A stretch of DNA of 38,670 nucleotides, from assembly GCA_017414705.1 (NCBI GenBank), contig JAFQKX010000083.1:1-38670 (forward strand), given 5' to 3'. This DNA comes from Clostridia bacterium (GTDB lineage Bacteria; Bacillota; Clostridia; Oscillospirales; Acutalibacteraceae). Position 1 is the first letter of the stretch, and every line of letters begins with the position of its first letter. Position numbers and translations under genes: made by a program. Of the stretch, positions 24,524 through 32,945 are shown in pieces. The notes under the pieces are model-generated. The model was not told the DNA's origin and did not search any database. It worked only from the letters and a program-made list of their open reading frames with translations.

Positions 24524-25009
24524 ATGAAAAAAAGTTATATTGCCTTAATCGTTGCTGTCGCGATATTTGCGAATATTCTTATTCTTTCCTTTTTATTGCC
24601 CATGATTGGATATTGGTTTGGCTTGGTTTTTTTTAGTTCGGACACAAGCTACAATAACGCGGAGATCGAGATCGTCGATTACCGTTTGTGTGAGGGAAAA
24701 GACGGGGAAGACATTATTGTTGTTAAATATTTGCTGAAAAATAACGGCAAGGATCCAACGGCATTGGGTTACGAAGGCAATTTTTATGCATACCAAGAAG
24801 GCATTGGTCTTGTTGAATGCTATGAAGAACTTCCCAAGGAATGCAATTATGATTTGGATGATCAATATAAGAACATAAAAGGCGGGGTAGAATATTACGC
24901 CGAGATTGCTTATGTGCTTGAATTTTCGGATAAGGACGTGGAGATTTTGGTTGAGGACTACGGTGACTTTTCCGACCGTAAAAAAGAAAAAGTATTTCAG
25001 CTTCAATGA
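24524..25009 (+). CDS. DUF5067-like exported protein
   Basis: A 161-residue protein with an N-terminal hydrophobic segment (about residues 5-38, membrane anchor or signal) and a beta-sandwich-like extracytoplasmic domain: AEIEIVDYRLCEGKDGEDIIVVKYLLKNNGKDPTALGYEGNFYAYQEG, ending VLEFSDKDVEILVEDYGDFSD. This strand pattern matches DUF5067 proteins, whose function is not known. It has a strong promoter and AAAAGGAG site. Its base composition is A+T-richer than the core genes and it directly precedes the repeat-bounded R-M cassette, so it may be acquired DNA. Confidence 0.72.
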   Translation: MKKSYIALIVAVAIFANILILSFLLPMIGYWFGLVFFSSDTSYNNAEIEIVDYRLCEGKDGEDIIVVKYLLKNNGKDPTALGYEGNFYAYQEGIGLVECYEELPKECNYDLDDQYKNIKGGVEYYAEIAYVLEFSDKDVEILVEDYGDFSDRKKEKVFQLQ

Positions 25010-25182: not shown

Positions 25183-26625
25183 CTATTCTCCTAACAAGTC
25201 CTTTTCAAACTGGTCTTTTGCTGCTTGCCATTCTTGTTCTGCTTCAATTTTCAACTGTCTTGCTTTCAATCGACGCTTTTGAATCTCATCTGCAATTTCC
25301 TGTTGAACGGTAATGTCGGGAACGGGAATTTTAACATTCTTTAACGTGTCGGTATTTACACCCGCCTGATTGTTGAAGTTAGTACACAACAGTTTCCAAT
25401 ATCCAATACTCAATAACACGTTGAAGAATGCGGCTACGTAGTAGGGATTTATTCCTTCCTTTACAGTTATACGTGTTATATGATTTGAAGCGGCACAGGG
25501 TATATCTGCATCCAATACCGTGGTTTTTCCGACCAATTCAGGAGAGTTTGTGTTATTAAAAATAACTTCATTCCTTTTGCAATAATCCTTGTTACTCAAA
25601 CGACTCTTTGGAACGTACTTTTTCGTATTAAACGTTAATTCGCCATCTGGTGTAATGCTGAAGGGTCGAAGGTGTGGAACTCGTTGTGAATTCGGCAAAT
25701 TATCTGCTTGATCTTCCTTTCCCGCAGCAAATCCCGAAACAATCTTTTCGCTTATTGCCTCAACAGTAAGCACCTCATAAGCAGATTTTTCTATCTGCAT
25801 TCTAAAATGAGCAAACTCCGGAGAATAGTAATCTGCGTCAATGCGACTATGTATATCGGCGTATTTAGTTGCATAAATTATTTTCTTGTCCGGAAAATCA
25901 AAGGATAGTCCTAATCTTTCTAAAACATATTTGCTCAGTGAAGAAAGCAAATTCTCTGATTTGTAAATCTTACTTTGCATTGACGCGCTGGCATCGTCCA
26001 TAAAATCAACCAATTTTTGTTGAATATCAAGCGGAGGAAGCACAATTTCAAAAGATTTATATTCTTCTTTATTTATATTTGATTGAACGGCAGAGCGTTG
26101 TATTCCTTTTACCCATTTTTGATAGAAATTAATTTTTGTACACCAATAGGCGTATTTGGGAATGACCTTTTTTTCGTCAAATCTAAATCGAATACAATAA
26201 CCTGCAAAAACAGCACTTCCAATACTGCCGTCATAAAAGTAGGTTCTTCCGACGGAACCGCTACGAGCAAAAAGAATATCGTTTTTCTTTAACAAATGCT
26301 TGTCTAAATACGTTTCCGCTGTCATATATTTGTGATTCTCTTCAATGCCAAAATCATCAAAATCTGTTATTCTGATATATTTGGGTTGTTTGTCGTCTGT
26401 TCGTTCTATTGCGGAGGCAGAAGTTCCGTAACAAGGTTCTTCAAGGCATAACTCTCCCAAGGGATTCGTTTTTAGGTTTGTACCTGTAATCGAAAGCTTA
26501 TAAAGAACGTGATTTATATCAATTCGGTTTTCAATATCCCCCCGTTTAACAGCGAAGACGCAAAGGTCATTCGCATCGGGGGTTATGCGAAAAAAGGTTT
26601 TGCGTCCTTCTGGAATTCCTTCCAT
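25183..26625 (-). CDS. hsdS: Restriction-modification specificity subunit (HsdS-type)
   Basis: A 480-residue S subunit that picks the DNA target. Two target recognition domains (about residues 1-190 and 250-420) are each followed by a conserved helical spacer: LPPLDIQQKLVDFMDDASASMQSKIYKSENLL (about 195-230) and VPDITVQQEIADEIQKRRLKARQLKIEAEQEW (about 435-465). Its ATG lies inside the methylase gene (43-bp overlap), so the two are coupled. The gene is clearly more A+T-rich than its partner and the flanking core genes, which fits exchange of recognition domains. The binding site cannot be predicted. Confidence 0.92.
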   Translation of the reverse strand: MEGIPEGRKTFFRITPDANDLCVFAVKRGDIENRIDINHVLYKLSITGTNLKTNPLGELCLEEPCYGTSASAIERTDDKQPKYIRITDFDDFGIEENHKYMTAETYLDKHLLKKNDILFARSGSVGRTYFYDGSIGSAVFAGYCIRFRFDEKKVIPKYAYWCTKINFYQKWVKGIQRSAVQSNINKEEYKSFEIVLPPLDIQQKLVDFMDDASASMQSKIYKSENLLSSLSKYVLERLGLSFDFPDKKIIYATKYADIHSRIDADYYSPEFAHFRMQIEKSAYEVLTVEAISEKIVSGFAAGKEDQADNLPNSQRVPHLRPFSITPDGELTFNTKKYVPKSRLSNKDYCKRNEVIFNNTNSPELVGKTTVLDADIPCAASNHITRITVKEGINPYYVAAFFNVLLSIGYWKLLCTNFNNQAGVNTDTLKNVKIPVPDITVQQEIADEIQKRRLKARQLKIEAEQEWQAAKDQFEKDLLGE

Positions 26626-28391
26626 TTCTTTACAATCTCGTCAAGCTGAGATTCGGTTTTTCTTCCCGTAGCATCGTAACCGATTAGCTCGGGTGCTGCC
26701 ATAAAGATTGCTTCGTTATCATTCGGCTTTTCGTTTTCTCCGCGCTTGCGAACGAAGATGACAGACGCCTTTACTCCTGCTCCGAAGTGTGCGAACGCGC
26801 ACTGCGGCAAGCTTACGACCGCAAGAAGCTGGAATTTTTCAAGGATAAAATCACGAACGTACTGCATTGAGCTGTTTGTCAAAATACCGTCGGGCAGGAC
26901 GATAGCTGCCTTGCCTGTTTCGGGCTTCAAGAACTGCCAAATTCTCTCGATAAACAGAACCTCGGAGCTTTGGGTTTTGCGTATCTTGACCTTGCCCTTT
27001 GCATCGGTCTGAGTGCCGAGCTCATACGTAGCCAAATATGGTTTTTCCGCGAGATTTATCGTAGAACCGAAGGGCGGGTTTGTAAGTATAAGATCAAAAC
27101 GGTTTTCGGCAAAGCCCTTGTTTCGGTCGTGCATTTTGTCAATGCTTTCGAGCGCGTCGTGGCTGATGACGTTTGTATGTCCGTCATCGTGAACGATCAT
27201 ATTCATCTTTGCTACTCGTGCAATTTCGTCGTTTATTTCGATGCCGTAAAGGTGTTTTGCGGCAAAGTCGTGCCAATAGTTATAATAATCAACCGAACCC
27301 TTTTCGTAATATTCGCCCGCTTGATCGCGCATATAATCGAGCGCATGAAGCAGAAATCCGCCCGAACCGCACGAGGGGTCGAGAACGTCGTGATCCTGCT
27401 CAGGCTTCATCATTTTTACGCAAAATTCGATAATCGGACGGGGAGTAAAGTATTGACCGAAATCGCCCTTGAAAAATCCGTCCATGAACTGCTCAAAGGC
27501 AACGCCTTTAACGTCAAGGTCAGTTTTACTCAAATTGATAGCTTCCAAATGGGAGACCACCGTGTGAAGAACGCGATCATCCACCTTTATGGATTCCGTA
27601 AACACCTCGGGGTCTCTTATTTTTTGCTCGTCGTACAGCGCGTTTATCCGCGCAGCCAACTTTGACGACGGCTCGTGCGTCTTTATCTGGAACTGATATG
27701 GCTCACCGTCTCTACGATGTTTCTGCTCGTCGCTTATTTTGACAAAGATCAATTTGCAGAGCTCGCCGAATGCCGTTGGCGGAGAAAGGCGACCACCGCC
27801 CCATAGGGTCTGATGACATTTCTTGATAGCCGCGATTAATGTCTCGCGCGAAACGGGCTTGATGTCGTTTGCCGTGCCTTTATAAAAACGGTATTCCTGC
27901 GGCTTGCCGTATGCTTTCGGTAAGTCGGCAACTACGTTTTTCTCGCGTTCGAGTATTCCGAACTTGTCCGAAACGTCAAGGACTCGGCGGGTTTCGCCCG
28001 CTATTATTACCGCATATTCCGCGCGCAGCTTTATCCATGTCGCGTTGCCTACTCCTTGCTCGATTGCCTGATTAAATTCTGCGTCAGTTATTCCGTCCTT
28101 TTTGCACTCCACTACTGCGTAAGGGCGAGTGCAGGCATCGTCGCTGAAAATGACGATGTCCGCGCGGTTTGCGGGTAATCTATCCGGAACAGCCACCTCG
28201 ACCTTAATTCTGTTCGCGGGGTACTCGTATTTATAAATAAGCTCCGCCCAAAATTCTGCGCGTATTTTTTCCTCGGGATCATTATAATTTTTTATGGTTT
28301 CGCCTGAAGTGATGTAAGTAATTTTCTGCTTTTCGTCCGTTCCAGTTATGTGCGCATAGCCGTCTTTTATCGCTCTTTCAAGATAGGTCAT
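26583..28391 (-). CDS. Fused PD-(D/E)XK nuclease and N6-adenine methylase (BcgI-like RM subunit or HsdM)
   Basis: A 602-residue protein. Residues about 30-150 form an HsdR-N-like nuclease domain: Glu in EEKIRAEF, Asp in RADIVIF, Glu and Lys in VVECKKDG, and a QGVGNA segment after it. From about 190 an HsdM-type methylase follows with GDFGQYFTPRPI, motif I DPSCGSGGF and motif IV NPPFG, which methylates adenine using S-adenosylmethionine. There is no helicase-type HsdR gene. Nuclease-methylase fusion plus separate S subunit matches the BcgI arrangement (type IIB/IIG). The ATG at 28391 is chosen because GGGAGGT lies 7 nt upstream; 28415 has a poor site. Confidence 0.87.
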   Translation of the reverse strand: MTYLERAIKDGYAHITGTDEKQKITYITSGETIKNYNDPEEKIRAEFWAELIYKYEYPANRIKVEVAVPDRLPANRADIVIFSDDACTRPYAVVECKKDGITDAEFNQAIEQGVGNATWIKLRAEYAVIIAGETRRVLDVSDKFGILEREKNVVADLPKAYGKPQEYRFYKGTANDIKPVSRETLIAAIKKCHQTLWGGGRLSPPTAFGELCKLIFVKISDEQKHRRDGEPYQFQIKTHEPSSKLAARINALYDEQKIRDPEVFTESIKVDDRVLHTVVSHLEAINLSKTDLDVKGVAFEQFMDGFFKGDFGQYFTPRPIIEFCVKMMKPEQDHDVLDPSCGSGGFLLHALDYMRDQAGEYYEKGSVDYYNYWHDFAAKHLYGIEINDEIARVAKMNMIVHDDGHTNVISHDALESIDKMHDRNKGFAENRFDLILTNPPFGSTINLAEKPYLATYELGTQTDAKGKVKIRKTQSSEVLFIERIWQFLKPETGKAAIVLPDGILTNSSMQYVRDFILEKFQLLAVVSLPQCAFAHFGAGVKASVIFVRKRGENEKPNDNEAIFMAAPELIGYDATGRKTESQLDEIVKKWKEFQKDAKPFFA

Positions 28392-28432
28392 TGTTTTTAC
28401 CTCCCATTTTGCCATACACTTTCTTGATTACC

Positions 28433-28461
28433 ATTATACCAAACTTCAATGCTTTTTTCAA
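28433..28461 (-). promoter_or_regulatory. SigmaA-type promoter for the R-M operon
   Basis: On the minus strand TTGAAA, 17 bp, perfect TATAAT. Confidence 0.85.
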
Positions 28462-28590: not shown

Positions 28591-28887
28591 TTAGTTTTTA
28601 TCCGAAAGTGCGCGCTCTAACCAAATAGCGCCCAGATCCATAGCGTTGTAAAGACCGTTTTTCTCGCTCTTTTTGACTACGCGATCCTTTTCGCTCAAGG
28701 TCGGATCGGTCTTGACCAAAGCGATCTCTACCTTTTCGGAAACCTTCAGCTTTTTGACCTTGTTTGCCGTCAGCACCTTCATCATGATCACGTACGGATC
28801 GGCGGTGCTGCCGTAATAAAGCACGTTTCCGCTGCGTACCAGCGGGCGACCTTTATAGGTCAGAAATTCAGACTCGTTCGGCATCAT
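28591..28887 (-). CDS. Conserved small protein downstream of ireB, unknown
   Basis: A 98-residue basic protein with a beta-rich start (EFLTYKGRPLVRSGNVLYYGSTADPYVIMMKVL) and a Lys-rich middle, ending in a helix (YNAMDLGAIWLERAL). No transmembrane segment and no known motif. The ATG at 28887 follows AAAAAGGGTG; a GTG at 28893 overlaps the ireB stop. It sits directly after ireB and is probably co-transcribed, so a link to the same signalling or cell-wall function is possible but unproven. Confidence 0.7.
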   Translation of the reverse strand: MMPNESEFLTYKGRPLVRSGNVLYYGSTADPYVIMMKVLTANKVKKLKVSEKVEIALVKTDPTLSEKDRVVKKSEKNGLYNAMDLGAIWLERALSDKN

Positions 28888-28889
28888 GT

Positions 28890-29144
28890 TCACCCTTTTT
28901 GAATATAAATTTTGACCATTGCCTGCAGCAGCTCGTCGCGATCAATGCGGCGGATGAGGCTGCGTGCGTTGTTATAGGTCGTGATGTAAGTCGGATCCTC
29001 CGACAGGATGTATCCCACCAGTTGATTGATGGGGTTGTATCCTTTTTCCCGCAGAGCTTCATATACCGTAACTACAATGGCGTGCATCTCCTGATCGGCA
29101 TCCCGAATGGGAGAAAAAGTAATGGTTGAATTTTTGTCCAGCAT
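28890..29144 (-). CDS. ireB: IreB family regulatory phosphoprotein
   Basis: An 84-residue protein of the IreB/YrzL (UPF0297) family. The signature ALREKGYNPINQLVGYILSEDPTYITTYNNARSLIRRIDRDELLQAMVKIYI is nearly complete. In Enterococcus IreB is a target of the Ser/Thr kinase IreK and affects cephalosporin resistance. The phosphorylated N-terminal Thr region is represented by STITFSPI. In most Firmicutes it is followed by ruvX and a DUF1292 gene; here neither follows. AAGGAGG lies 8 nt before the ATG at 29144. A palindrome overlaps its promoter. Confidence 0.94.
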   Translation of the reverse strand: MLDKNSTITFSPIRDADQEMHAIVVTVYEALREKGYNPINQLVGYILSEDPTYITTYNNARSLIRRIDRDELLQAMVKIYIQKG

Positions 29145-29190
29145 AATCAAAACCTCCTTGGAAATCGGTTGTTAATACAATAATACTATT

Positions 29191-29219
29191 ATATTACACT
29201 ATTCGGTGTAAAATTGCAA
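29191..29219 (-). promoter_or_regulatory. Promoter of ireB
   Basis: On the minus strand TTGCAA, 17 bp, TAATAT. The spacer and -10 are covered by an inverted repeat. Confidence 0.6.
29194..29211. promoter_or_regulatory. Candidate operator in the ireB promoter
   Basis: TTACAC-N6-GTGTAA, a perfect 6+6 inverted repeat lying between -35 and -10. The position is suited to a dimeric repressor; no regulator is identified. Confidence 0.5.
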
Positions 29220-29254
29220 GTCACACCGCAAAGAAAATTTCACAGACACGAAAA

Positions 29255-31645
29255 TTATTGACGCAGTGTAGCGCCTGCAGCCTCCAGCTTTTTGATGATC
29301 TTGGCGGTTGCGCGTTCGATCTGCTCGTCAGTCAGCGTAGCCTCTGCCGAACGCAGCACCGCACGGAAGGCAACACTCTTCATGCCCTGCGGGATCTGAG
29401 AGCCCTCGTAAACATCAAACAGCTCTACTTTTTCGCACAACTTTCCGGCGCCCTCGCGAATGGCATCCTCCAAGGTTCCCACGGGAGTTTCAGCGGTGCA
29501 AAGCAGTGCAAAGTCACGCAGCACGGGCGGGAATTTGGGCAGGGGACGGTAGAGGATCTGCTTTTGAACCACCTGATACAATGCATCCAGCTTGAGCTCC
29601 GCTACGTAGCATCTGGTGTCGATTCCGTAGGCTTGTGCCACTTTGGGATGCACTTCGCCGAATACTGCAACCGTAGCATCGCCAAGCAGCACCTTCGCTT
29701 GACGGCCGGGATGCAGATACGGCTCGTCACTGCGTTCGTAACGGCAAACGGCACCGCAGACCTTCAATACCTGCTCAAGCAAGCCCTTGAGAGTGAAGAA
29801 ATCCTCTCCCTCGCCGTACAAGCCGATACACATGGTAGCAAGCTCTTGCGGCTGCTCGGTCAGCGGAAATTCCTTGGCGACAAAGCGTTTGCTGATTTCA
29901 AACAAGCGAGCGGCTTCGTTTTTGTTATTATAGTTGGTTGCAAGTACCGTCAGCATGCTGGTTACCAACTGCGTGCGCATAACCGAATATTCTTCACCCA
30001 ACGGATTGAGCAGACGGATCTGCTGCAGGCGGCGATCCTCAGCATTCAGGTGCAGCGCGTCAATGGCTTTGCTGCTGATAAACGAATAGGTCGTGATCTC
30101 GTTGAGACCGTTGCCCAGCAGCACCTGCTTCATAGCGTTGTTTTTCTTGCGCTCGGGCAAGATGTTACCGCGGCAGACCGTGCCGGTCATCGGCGTGCCG
30201 ATGATGTGATCGTAACCGTAGATTCGCATGACTTCTTCCGCCAGATCTGCACGACCTTCAATATCGTCGCGGATCGAGGGAATACGGCAGGTCAGCATAT
30301 CACCGTCCAGCGTTGCCTGCAGATCCAAACGGCAGAGAATATCCAACATGGTCTCGGCGGGAATGTCCAGACCCAACAGAGCGTTGATGCTGCTGGCGGT
30401 TGCCTTCAGTTCGCGGCGCTCGGGCAGGCCTTCGTTTTTGTCGATCACGCCGTCCAGAATCTCTCCGCATCCCAATTCGTCGATCAGAGCCAAGGCACGG
30501 TTCATGGCAAATTCTACGTTGTTGATGTCGGTGCCGCGCTCGTAGCGTCCGCTCGATTCGGTGCGCAGACCCAACGCGCGGGAGGTGCGGCGGACGTTGT
30601 CGCGGCGGAATTTAGCGCTTTCCAGGAACAGATCGACGGTGTCGTCCTTGATCTCGCTGTTGAGACCGCCCATAATACCAGCCAGACAGGACGGCTTTTC
30701 GGCGTCGGCAATGACCAGCATCTCTGCCGTCAGCTCGTGATCGTTGCCGTCCAGCGTCACGATATGCTCGCCTGCATCGGCGTTTCGGACAATAATATGA
30801 TGCCCCGCAATGTCGCGCATATCAAATGCGTGCATAGGTTGGCCCGTCTCCAGCATCACAAAGTTCGTGATGTCAACGATGTTGTTGATGGGACGCATAC
30901 CGGCGGCCTTGAGGCAACGCTTCATCCATTCGGGGGATTCCGCGATCTTCAGATTGCGTACCGCGCGACCCATGTAACGCGGGCAGCAGTCGACGTTGAG
31001 CACGTCTACCTTCATAATATCGTGGATACTGCCGCCGCTGACGCGGTAATCACAGCTCGGAGCACGGAATTCGGTCTTGAGCACTACGCTAACCTCACGT
31101 GCCACGCCCAAAACGCTCTGGCAGTCGGGGCGATTTGCCGTGATCTTAAAATCGATCACGTAATCAAATAAACCCAACACCTCGCGCAGATCGGTGCCGA
31201 TGGGATAATCGCCCTTGAGGATCATAATGCCGTTGACCTCAGCACCGGGATAATCACAATCCTTCAGACATAATTCTTCGCCCGAGCATAGCATACCGTT
31301 GGAGGGCAGCCCGCGCAGCTTTCCGTTTTTGATGACCATGCCGTTGGGCAGGTGGGAATTGTGTAATGCAGCAGGGACAAAAGCACCCTCAAATACGTTT
31401 TGTGCACCGGTGATGATCTGAACGTCCTCGCCACTGCCCACGTCCATGGTGCAGATCTGCAAGTGATCCGAATCGGGATGGGGAACGATCTTCTTGATCT
31501 GTGCTACCACCACGTTGTCCATGGTGTCGGCAAGATTTTCGATGCTTTCCACCTCAAATCCCGCCATAACCATTTTATCGCAAAATTCTTGTACGGGAAG
31601 CGTGATATCAACGTATCGCTTCAACCAATTTAATGAAATCTTCAT
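29255..31645 (-). CDS. pheT: Phenylalanine--tRNA ligase beta subunit
   Basis: A 796-residue PheT. The N-terminus MKISLNWLKRYVD is typical. In order: an EMAP/tRNA-binding domain (about 40-150), B3/4 editing domain (about 200-390, with NIVDITNFVMLETGQPMHAFD), B5 domain (about 395-475), the inactive class II core-like region (475-690) and the C-terminal FDX-ACB anticodon-binding domain (PLPKFPPVLRDFALLC to the end). It forms an alpha2-beta2 enzyme with PheS and edits mischarged Tyr-tRNA-Phe. GGAGGAAG precedes the ATG at 31645. It follows pheS by 18 bp under the Phe T-box. Confidence 0.97.
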   Translation of the reverse strand: MKISLNWLKRYVDITLPVQEFCDKMVMAGFEVESIENLADTMDNVVVAQIKKIVPHPDSDHLQICTMDVGSGEDVQIITGAQNVFEGAFVPAALHNSHLPNGMVIKNGKLRGLPSNGMLCSGEELCLKDCDYPGAEVNGIMILKGDYPIGTDLREVLGLFDYVIDFKITANRPDCQSVLGVAREVSVVLKTEFRAPSCDYRVSGGSIHDIMKVDVLNVDCCPRYMGRAVRNLKIAESPEWMKRCLKAAGMRPINNIVDITNFVMLETGQPMHAFDMRDIAGHHIIVRNADAGEHIVTLDGNDHELTAEMLVIADAEKPSCLAGIMGGLNSEIKDDTVDLFLESAKFRRDNVRRTSRALGLRTESSGRYERGTDINNVEFAMNRALALIDELGCGEILDGVIDKNEGLPERRELKATASSINALLGLDIPAETMLDILCRLDLQATLDGDMLTCRIPSIRDDIEGRADLAEEVMRIYGYDHIIGTPMTGTVCRGNILPERKKNNAMKQVLLGNGLNEITTYSFISSKAIDALHLNAEDRRLQQIRLLNPLGEEYSVMRTQLVTSMLTVLATNYNNKNEAARLFEISKRFVAKEFPLTEQPQELATMCIGLYGEGEDFFTLKGLLEQVLKVCGAVCRYERSDEPYLHPGRQAKVLLGDATVAVFGEVHPKVAQAYGIDTRCYVAELKLDALYQVVQKQILYRPLPKFPPVLRDFALLCTAETPVGTLEDAIREGAGKLCEKVELFDVYEGSQIPQGMKSVAFRAVLRSAEATLTDEQIERATAKIIKKLEAAGATLRQ

Positions 31646-31663
31646 ATTGCTTCCTCCTGACAA

Positions 31664-32683
31664 TCAGAACTGTTCCAGAAAACGAATATCGTTTTCAAAC
31701 AACAGACGAATGTCGCTGATCTTGTAACGGGTCGTGGTCAAACGGTCTAAGCCGATACCGAATGCAAAGCCCGAATATTCTTCGGGATCGATGCCGCATT
31801 CCGACAGCACGTGCGGATGTACCATGCCGGCACCCAAAATTTCGATCCAACCGCTGCCCTTGCAGACACGGCAGCCCTTGCCGCCGCATTCCGAGCAGGA
31901 AACGTCCACCTCAACCGACGGCTCGGTAAATGGGAAGAAGGAGGGGCGGAATTTCACCTTGGTCTCGGGACCGTAAATTTCGTGTGCGAATTGCTCCAGT
32001 GTTCCCTTGAGATCGCACATGGTGATGCCTTTGTCCACAACAAGACCTTCCACCTGATGGAATACGGGGGAGTGGGTCGCGTCCACCTCGTCGGCGCGGA
32101 ATACGCGGCCGGGGCAGATGATGCGGATGGGAGGCTTGCGCTTTTTCATGGTGCGGATCTGTGCTGCGGAGGTCTGGGTGCGCAGCAACAGGTTTTCGCC
32201 CAAATAGAAGGTGTCCTGCATATCGCGTGCGGGATGATCCGCCGGTACGTTGAGTGCCTCAAAGTTGTAATAATCGGTCTCCACCTCGGGACCGTCCACA
32301 ACGTCAAATCCCATGGACTGGAAAATGTCGATCAGATCGTCCAACACCGTATTGAGCGGGTGCAAACGGCCTTGCTTGTTGGATTTTCCGGGCATGGTGA
32401 TGTCCAAGGCCTCGGCAGCCAGCTTTTGCTCGATCGCTTTTTCCTTGATGATCTCCAGCTTTTCGCGTACGGCAGTCTCGATCTGTGCGCGTACCTCGTT
32501 TGCCATTTGTCCTACAACGGGACGTTCCTCGGCAGACAAAGAGCCCATCTGCTTGAGAATGGCAGTCAATTCTCCTTTTTTACCAAGATAACGAACCTTG
32601 AGTTCCTCGGCCTCCTGCTGCGTCTGTACCGACTGTGTTGCGGTCAGCGCTTCCTGCAGGATCGCTTGCAGCTTTTCTTTCAT
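31664..32683 (-). CDS. pheS: Phenylalanine--tRNA ligase alpha subunit
   Basis: A 339-residue PheS carrying the catalytic class II core that charges tRNA-Phe. It has an N-terminal coiled-coil (about 1-85), then [21 protein letters not shown], the motif 2 region [23 protein letters not shown], the Firmicute-type [14 protein letters not shown] cysteine cluster, and motif 3 [16 protein letters not shown]. Length is normal (about 340). The ATG at 32683 has GGAGG 7 nt upstream; an upstream in-frame ATG lies within the T-box leader and is not used. Confidence 0.97.
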
Positions 32684-32699
32684 CTTGTAACCTCCAAAA

Positions 32700-32945
32700 A
32701 TAAAAAATGCTTCTGTCCCAAAAAGGGACGAAGCATATAACTCCGCGGTACCACCCTGATTTTTGCATAAGAGCAAACACTCTGTCGACGATAACGGTGC
32801 CTGACCGTCGCAGCCTACTGAAAAAACTTGTTGAGCCGCGCCGCTCCGGGGCGAACTTCATCTGCGCTCCTGCTGCCTCCGCTTTCAGCCTTGACGGAGA
32901 CTCTCTGAAAACAGTTTTGTGCGAAAACTACTTTCCCCTTCATTG
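32700..32945 (-). promoter_or_regulatory. T-box leader, Phe specifier
   Basis: A T-box riboswitch before pheST, read on the minus strand. The Stem I base pairs GGGG with CCCC; the specifier codon TTC (32853-32855) precedes the CCCC arm. The conserved T-box AGGGTGGTACCGCGG is at 32744-32757. The terminator, ATGCTTCGTCCC with its complement and a T run, occupies 32699-32737. Uncharged tRNA-Phe would induce pheST. Confidence 0.94.

Follow-up and report, generated by a model that had tools for sequence, protein, structure and literature searches.

A probable type IIB-like restriction–modification pair, related to BsaXI, in a Clostridia bacterium

Whether a DNA methylase gene followed by a specificity gene is the modification half of a type I system, or an enzyme that both restricts and modifies, is the question raised by a two-gene restriction–modification (R-M) pair on the minus strand of contig JAFQKX010000083.1 from a Clostridia bacterium (Acutalibacteraceae; assembly GCA_017414705.1). 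The stretch analyzed, hereafter the window, is 38,670 nucleotides long; the pair consists of a nuclease–methylase gene (RM, 26583-28391) and a specificity subunit gene (S, 25183-26625). We consider it very likely that the pair is a compact R-M enzyme of the type IIB kind, similar to BsaXI. This is supported by its domain content, the conserved catalytic D/E/K residues, a predicted nuclease fold, an operon with an S subunit bearing two target recognition domains (TRDs), and the lack of HsdR partners.

The RM gene encodes 602 amino acids (aa) in which translation, Pfam, profile and predicted structure point to a PD-(D/E)XK endonuclease, a helical connector and an N6-adenine methyltransferase. 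HSDR_N_2 was matched at residues 39-142 (1.6e-13) and N6_Mtase at residues 293-596 (1.7e-42), the motifs of the latter being consistent with predicted adenine methylation. The N-terminal endonuclease domain (N-domain; residues ~1-165, positions 27897-28391, minus strand) contains the conserved residues E40/E41, D78, E95, K97 and Q112, and the methyltransferase core (residues ~315-596, positions 26604-27449, minus strand) contains DPSCGSGGF (338-346) and NPPF (438-441). A preliminary description of this DNA had given the coordinates, strand and motifs of the gene correctly: EEKIRAEF, RADIVIF, VECKK, DPSCGSGGF and NPPFG all occur in the minus-strand translation of 26583-28391. The S gene runs from an ATG at 26625 to a stop at 25183 (minus strand), encodes 480 aa with two Methylase_S stretches (3.3e-23), i.e., two TRDs, and overlaps the end of the RM gene by 43 bp (26583-26625), also as described before. 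The pair thus has nuclease and methyltransferase in one polypeptide and a separate, adjacent S with two TRDs, as in the RM + S group of type IIB enzymes (BsaXI, BcgI, BaeI). For type IIB as a whole, REBASE is reported to list 28 enzymes (PMC11997821).

By every measure used, the best solved relative was RM.BsaXI. A phmmer search of the single sequence against PDB found it at 2e-40 over residues 156-560, and a nine-sequence profile found it at 2.4e-80 over the full RM length including the N-domain (BsaXI residues 22-637). The whole RM model matched RM.BsaXI at 2.0e-32 in Foldseek and with a VIA Z of 29.6; the N-domain model alone did so at 1.3e-4 and with a VIA Z of 13.4 (172 aligned residues, root-mean-square deviation 5.8), ahead of a solved HsdR fragment (VIA Z 10.2). 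The structure prediction that had been proposed as a check gave a confident nuclease fold (pLDDT, the model's per-residue confidence score, of 92.3) with the strand and helix order of PD-(D/E)XK enzymes. In this model the catalytic residues fall on the expected strands, D78 on one strand and E95/K97 where the strand after it ends, with Q112 in the following helix. Changing E73, D90, E105 or K107 of BsaXI to alanine abolished cleavage (PMC11997821). Two alignments agreed in placing D90, E105 and K107 opposite D78, E95 and K97, but they differed for E73, which fell on E65 in one and two residues off in the other, so that its mapping is less certain.

Like RM.BsaXI with S.BsaXI (PDB 8w0p/8w2p/8w2q), the window pair joins a PD-(D/E)XK domain, a helical connector and an N6-adenine methylase in one chain, has a separate two-TRD S and keeps the D/E/K residues, whereas BsaXI is longer (916 aa) and has a C-terminal knob and paddle that the window RM lacks. 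BcgI, the type IIB archetype, shares the two-gene RM + S layout without HsdR (PMC3874165), but its restriction endonuclease domain is reported not to superpose on those of other RM + S type IIB enzymes (PMC11997821). The preliminary description had named a BcgI layout (type IIB/IIG) rather than classic type I; the assignment to type IIB RM + S stands, and we replace "BcgI-like" with the safer "type IIB, BsaXI-like" because BsaXI is the closest solved enzyme and BcgI is reported not to superpose. This kind of enzyme is already known. Automatic annotation labels the annotated relatives in our survey "N-6 DNA methylase" or type I M, although a nuclease lies inside the protein, and recognizing that nuclease corrects the "orphan type I methylase" call.

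We surveyed 80 relative loci, obtained from one scan of genome contigs and spanning many phyla and identities from 78% to about 27%. S was directly downstream in 56 of them and fused to the methylase in about 9 more, most of the remainder being at contig ends or broken. Among the fusions are two single-chain RM-S proteins of 897 aa (L072 and L081) that are nearly identical in two metagenome-assembled genomes; in a third genome (L005) the length is equal and the first ~100 residues are identical. Of the relatives, 73 have a complete N-domain, and 72 of these keep the D/E/K residues intact; the remaining one, L093, belongs to a MADS locus (MAD2-5-6-7-8). In these 73 domains a further acid was at position 65 in 48 and at position 76 in 23, with both in none and neither in 2, and may represent a catalytic acid that has migrated. 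On the tree, the 65/76 switch takes no fewer than four changes, two of them the losses, and therefore does not amount to many independent events.

No HsdR was found in an operon with the pair in any of the 80 loci, using an HsdR profile built from 16 HsdR fragments. A ResIII/EcoEI_R_C helicase at L070 was not counted as a partner; it lies on the opposite strand, ~0.6 kb upstream of broken methylase frames. Of the 32 carrier genomes, 8 gave no match to HSDR_N (PF04313), some of them with assemblies of 3.5-5.5 Mb; among these 8 are Sphingobacterium psychroaquaticum, a Balneolaceae chromosome, Ciceribacter, Novosphingobium and Sphingomonas. Those PF04313 matches in carrier genomes that scored E about 1e-4 to 1e-9 were in many cases incomplete and could belong to other proteins. 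The genome of the closest relative's host, Bacterium 1XD8-76 (4.0 Mb), had one PF04313 match, in a frame with the methylase motifs CGSGNF and NPPY; it reads as a type IIG-like protein and was rejected as an HsdR. For the window's own host, the lack of hsdR in the window extends to the assembled part of the genome (1.04 Mb in 83 contigs, ~70% of the genome), in which PF04313 had no match. ResIII matches were present on other contigs (C79, C57 and C3), and no HsdR-like protein was recognized among them; the two longest of the three frames, read by eye, were Mfd-like and AddB-like. Because the assembly is 69.8% complete, absence from it is weak when taken alone. The sequence, the structural model and the relatives surveyed together back the earlier proposal of a nuclease–methylase fusion with a separate S and no HsdR.

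Several observations weigh against a BsaXI-like enzyme. About 30% of the host genome is missing from the assembly, and PADLOC places RM best in a type I methyltransferase family. The N-domain shares only about 16-20% identity with that of BsaXI, and the residue that probably corresponds to BsaXI E73, E65, is replaced by F, Y or N in about a third of the relatives, mostly with E at 76. The knob and paddle are absent from the 602-residue RM, and the paddle residues D816 and E823 are required for BsaXI cleavage (PMC11997821). The first two points, along with the HsdS-like S, suit a reading in which the pair serves an ordinary type I system as its modification half, with hsdR lost or in the unassembled part and the N-domain a non-catalytic DNA-binding or docking relic. 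We regard this as very improbable: a methylase core and an S are shared with type I HsdM/HsdS, but the window pair has the extra nuclease domain, and RM falls far short of the NCBIfam hsdM equivalog TIGR00497 (66.9 bits against a cut-off of 242.75). The matches to type I M structures are confined to residues about 175-602, leaving the N-domain uncovered; no relative has an operon HsdR, several carrier genomes lack any HSDR_N, and the near-universal retention of D/E/K is unlike a relic. The missing paddle instead bears on a real RM + S nuclease with another geometry, such as one-side cutting or nicking. Among the type IIB enzymes identified before, only BsaXI is reported to have a paddle (PMC11997821), and two TRDs with two RM subunits predict symmetric cutting; we find such a geometry unlikely.

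A further possibility is that the pair only methylates, in an epigenetic or anti-restriction role, or is a fragment of a multi-gene defence system of the MADS kind that restricts through other proteins. The highest-scoring NCBIfam model for RM was indeed MAD2 (319 bits, below its cut-off of 720), and MADS MAD2/MAD5 (NF047738, NF047740) likewise pair an HSDR_N_2-like domain and methylase with a following S; some relatives also carry an extra effector-like gene. Yet no MAD6-8-type gene was recognized beside the pair among the genes scanned, which were housekeeping or DUF5067 genes. The MADS-type loci compared (L093, L154, L155 and L156) differ in the nuclease too: besides L093, three more MAD2-like proteins beside a serine/threonine kinase gene look degenerate, clearly so in Hymenobacter and Bacteroides finegoldii and with an uncertain alignment in Piscinibacter, so that nuclease residues are degraded in three MAD2 copies clearly and in one uncertainly. 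They are intact in the stand-alone pairs, including the window RM, and in two further relatives outside MADS-type loci (L157 and L158). Compared with the closest relative, L016, the N-domain of the window RM is also conserved to the same degree as the full-length protein (77% and 78% identity). The contrast, drawn from four loci, supports a working nuclease in the stand-alone pairs without proving it, and a methylation-only or MADS-derived pair seems quite improbable to us. The contrast also suggests that one architecture could pass from restricting by itself to methylating within a larger system.

We thus favor reading the pair as an ordinary, probably active type IIB-like R-M enzyme, judging from its sequence and models. 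In such an enzyme two RM subunits would probably bind one S, as (RM)2S, whose two TRDs would each recognize one half of a split target sequence. In its half-site, each RM subunit would methylate adenine at N6, leaving N6-methyladenine on both strands, and on unmodified DNA each would cut nearby with its own PD-(D/E)XK domain, without HsdR, a helicase or ATP-driven translocation. Given the two-TRD S and the (RM)2S model, cleavage would be expected on both sides of the site. The presumed role would be defence against phage.

RM is 78% identical to that of L016 and S only 26%, and the TRDs of S matched others in swapped order, the pattern to be expected where specificity diversifies while the catalytic subunit is held. 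Loci L007 and L008, whose genomes come from separate families within the order, encode RM and S proteins predicted to have equal lengths and equal starts, a likeness that suggests recent transfer.

In 16 of the relative loci the RM-S pair is accompanied by a third gene, usually of about 490-520 codons. These include L016 (13221-14702), the others being L036, L039, L041, L044, L048, L051, L052, L056, L057, L058, L059, L061, L062, L069 and L070. The gene mostly follows S directly, often with a 4-bp overlap; in L059 it lies between RM and S, and the L051 and L058 copies are split or cut. Its N-terminal part matched a DGQHR (DndB-like) model below cut-off, and its C-terminal part weakly matched TIR or nucleoside-deoxyribosyltransferase models. 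No DGQHR-TIR gene was found in the window or the assembled host genome, and our literature search on MADS and on TIR/DGQHR-linked R-M found no description of this arrangement within the library covered. That the third gene acts as a back-up effector is only a guess. One could also read the stand-alone pairs of an HSDR_N_2-methylase and S, which range from Firmicutes and Treponema to Patescibacteria and archaea, as a lineage with a mechanism distinct from that of classical type IIB enzymes, with no knob or paddle and with the catalytic acid at 65 or 76. The pairs of this lineage would often carry the DGQHR+TIR-like protein, and the window would hold a minimal two-gene form. We hold this to be a rather doubtful but not negligible possibility.

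Upstream of the RM gene, a promoter-like TTGAAA-N17-TATAAT (28433-28461, minus strand) matches 11 of 12 consensus bases and has a TG before the -10 element. Its support comes from position and not from number, as the region scanned holds 5 such sites where chance alone would give 7.3. The Shine-Dalgarno sequence GGGAGG is placed 8 nt ahead of the ATG (28389-28405 with the start codon, minus strand, by direct reading). A second in-frame ATG is located 24 bases upstream, at 28415, but 28391 is the better start because GGGAGG stands 8 nt before it and the promoter-like sequence is just upstream; for the same reasons the RM gene probably forms its own transcription unit. The G+C content of the S gene (0.36-0.39) is below that of most flanks (about 0.43-0.57).

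Downstream of S, on the opposite strand, lies a gene (24524-25009, plus strand) whose DUF5067 protein has a hydrophobic N-terminus. We searched the relatives for an empty insertion site and found only that the pheS-pheT-ireB block is kept in several, with a variable downstream neighbor. In the window, which derives from a gut-type bacterium, a conserved block (31664-32776, pheT, ireB and a 100-aa gene) is at 28591-32776 (minus strand) and ends there, and what follows it varies among relatives.
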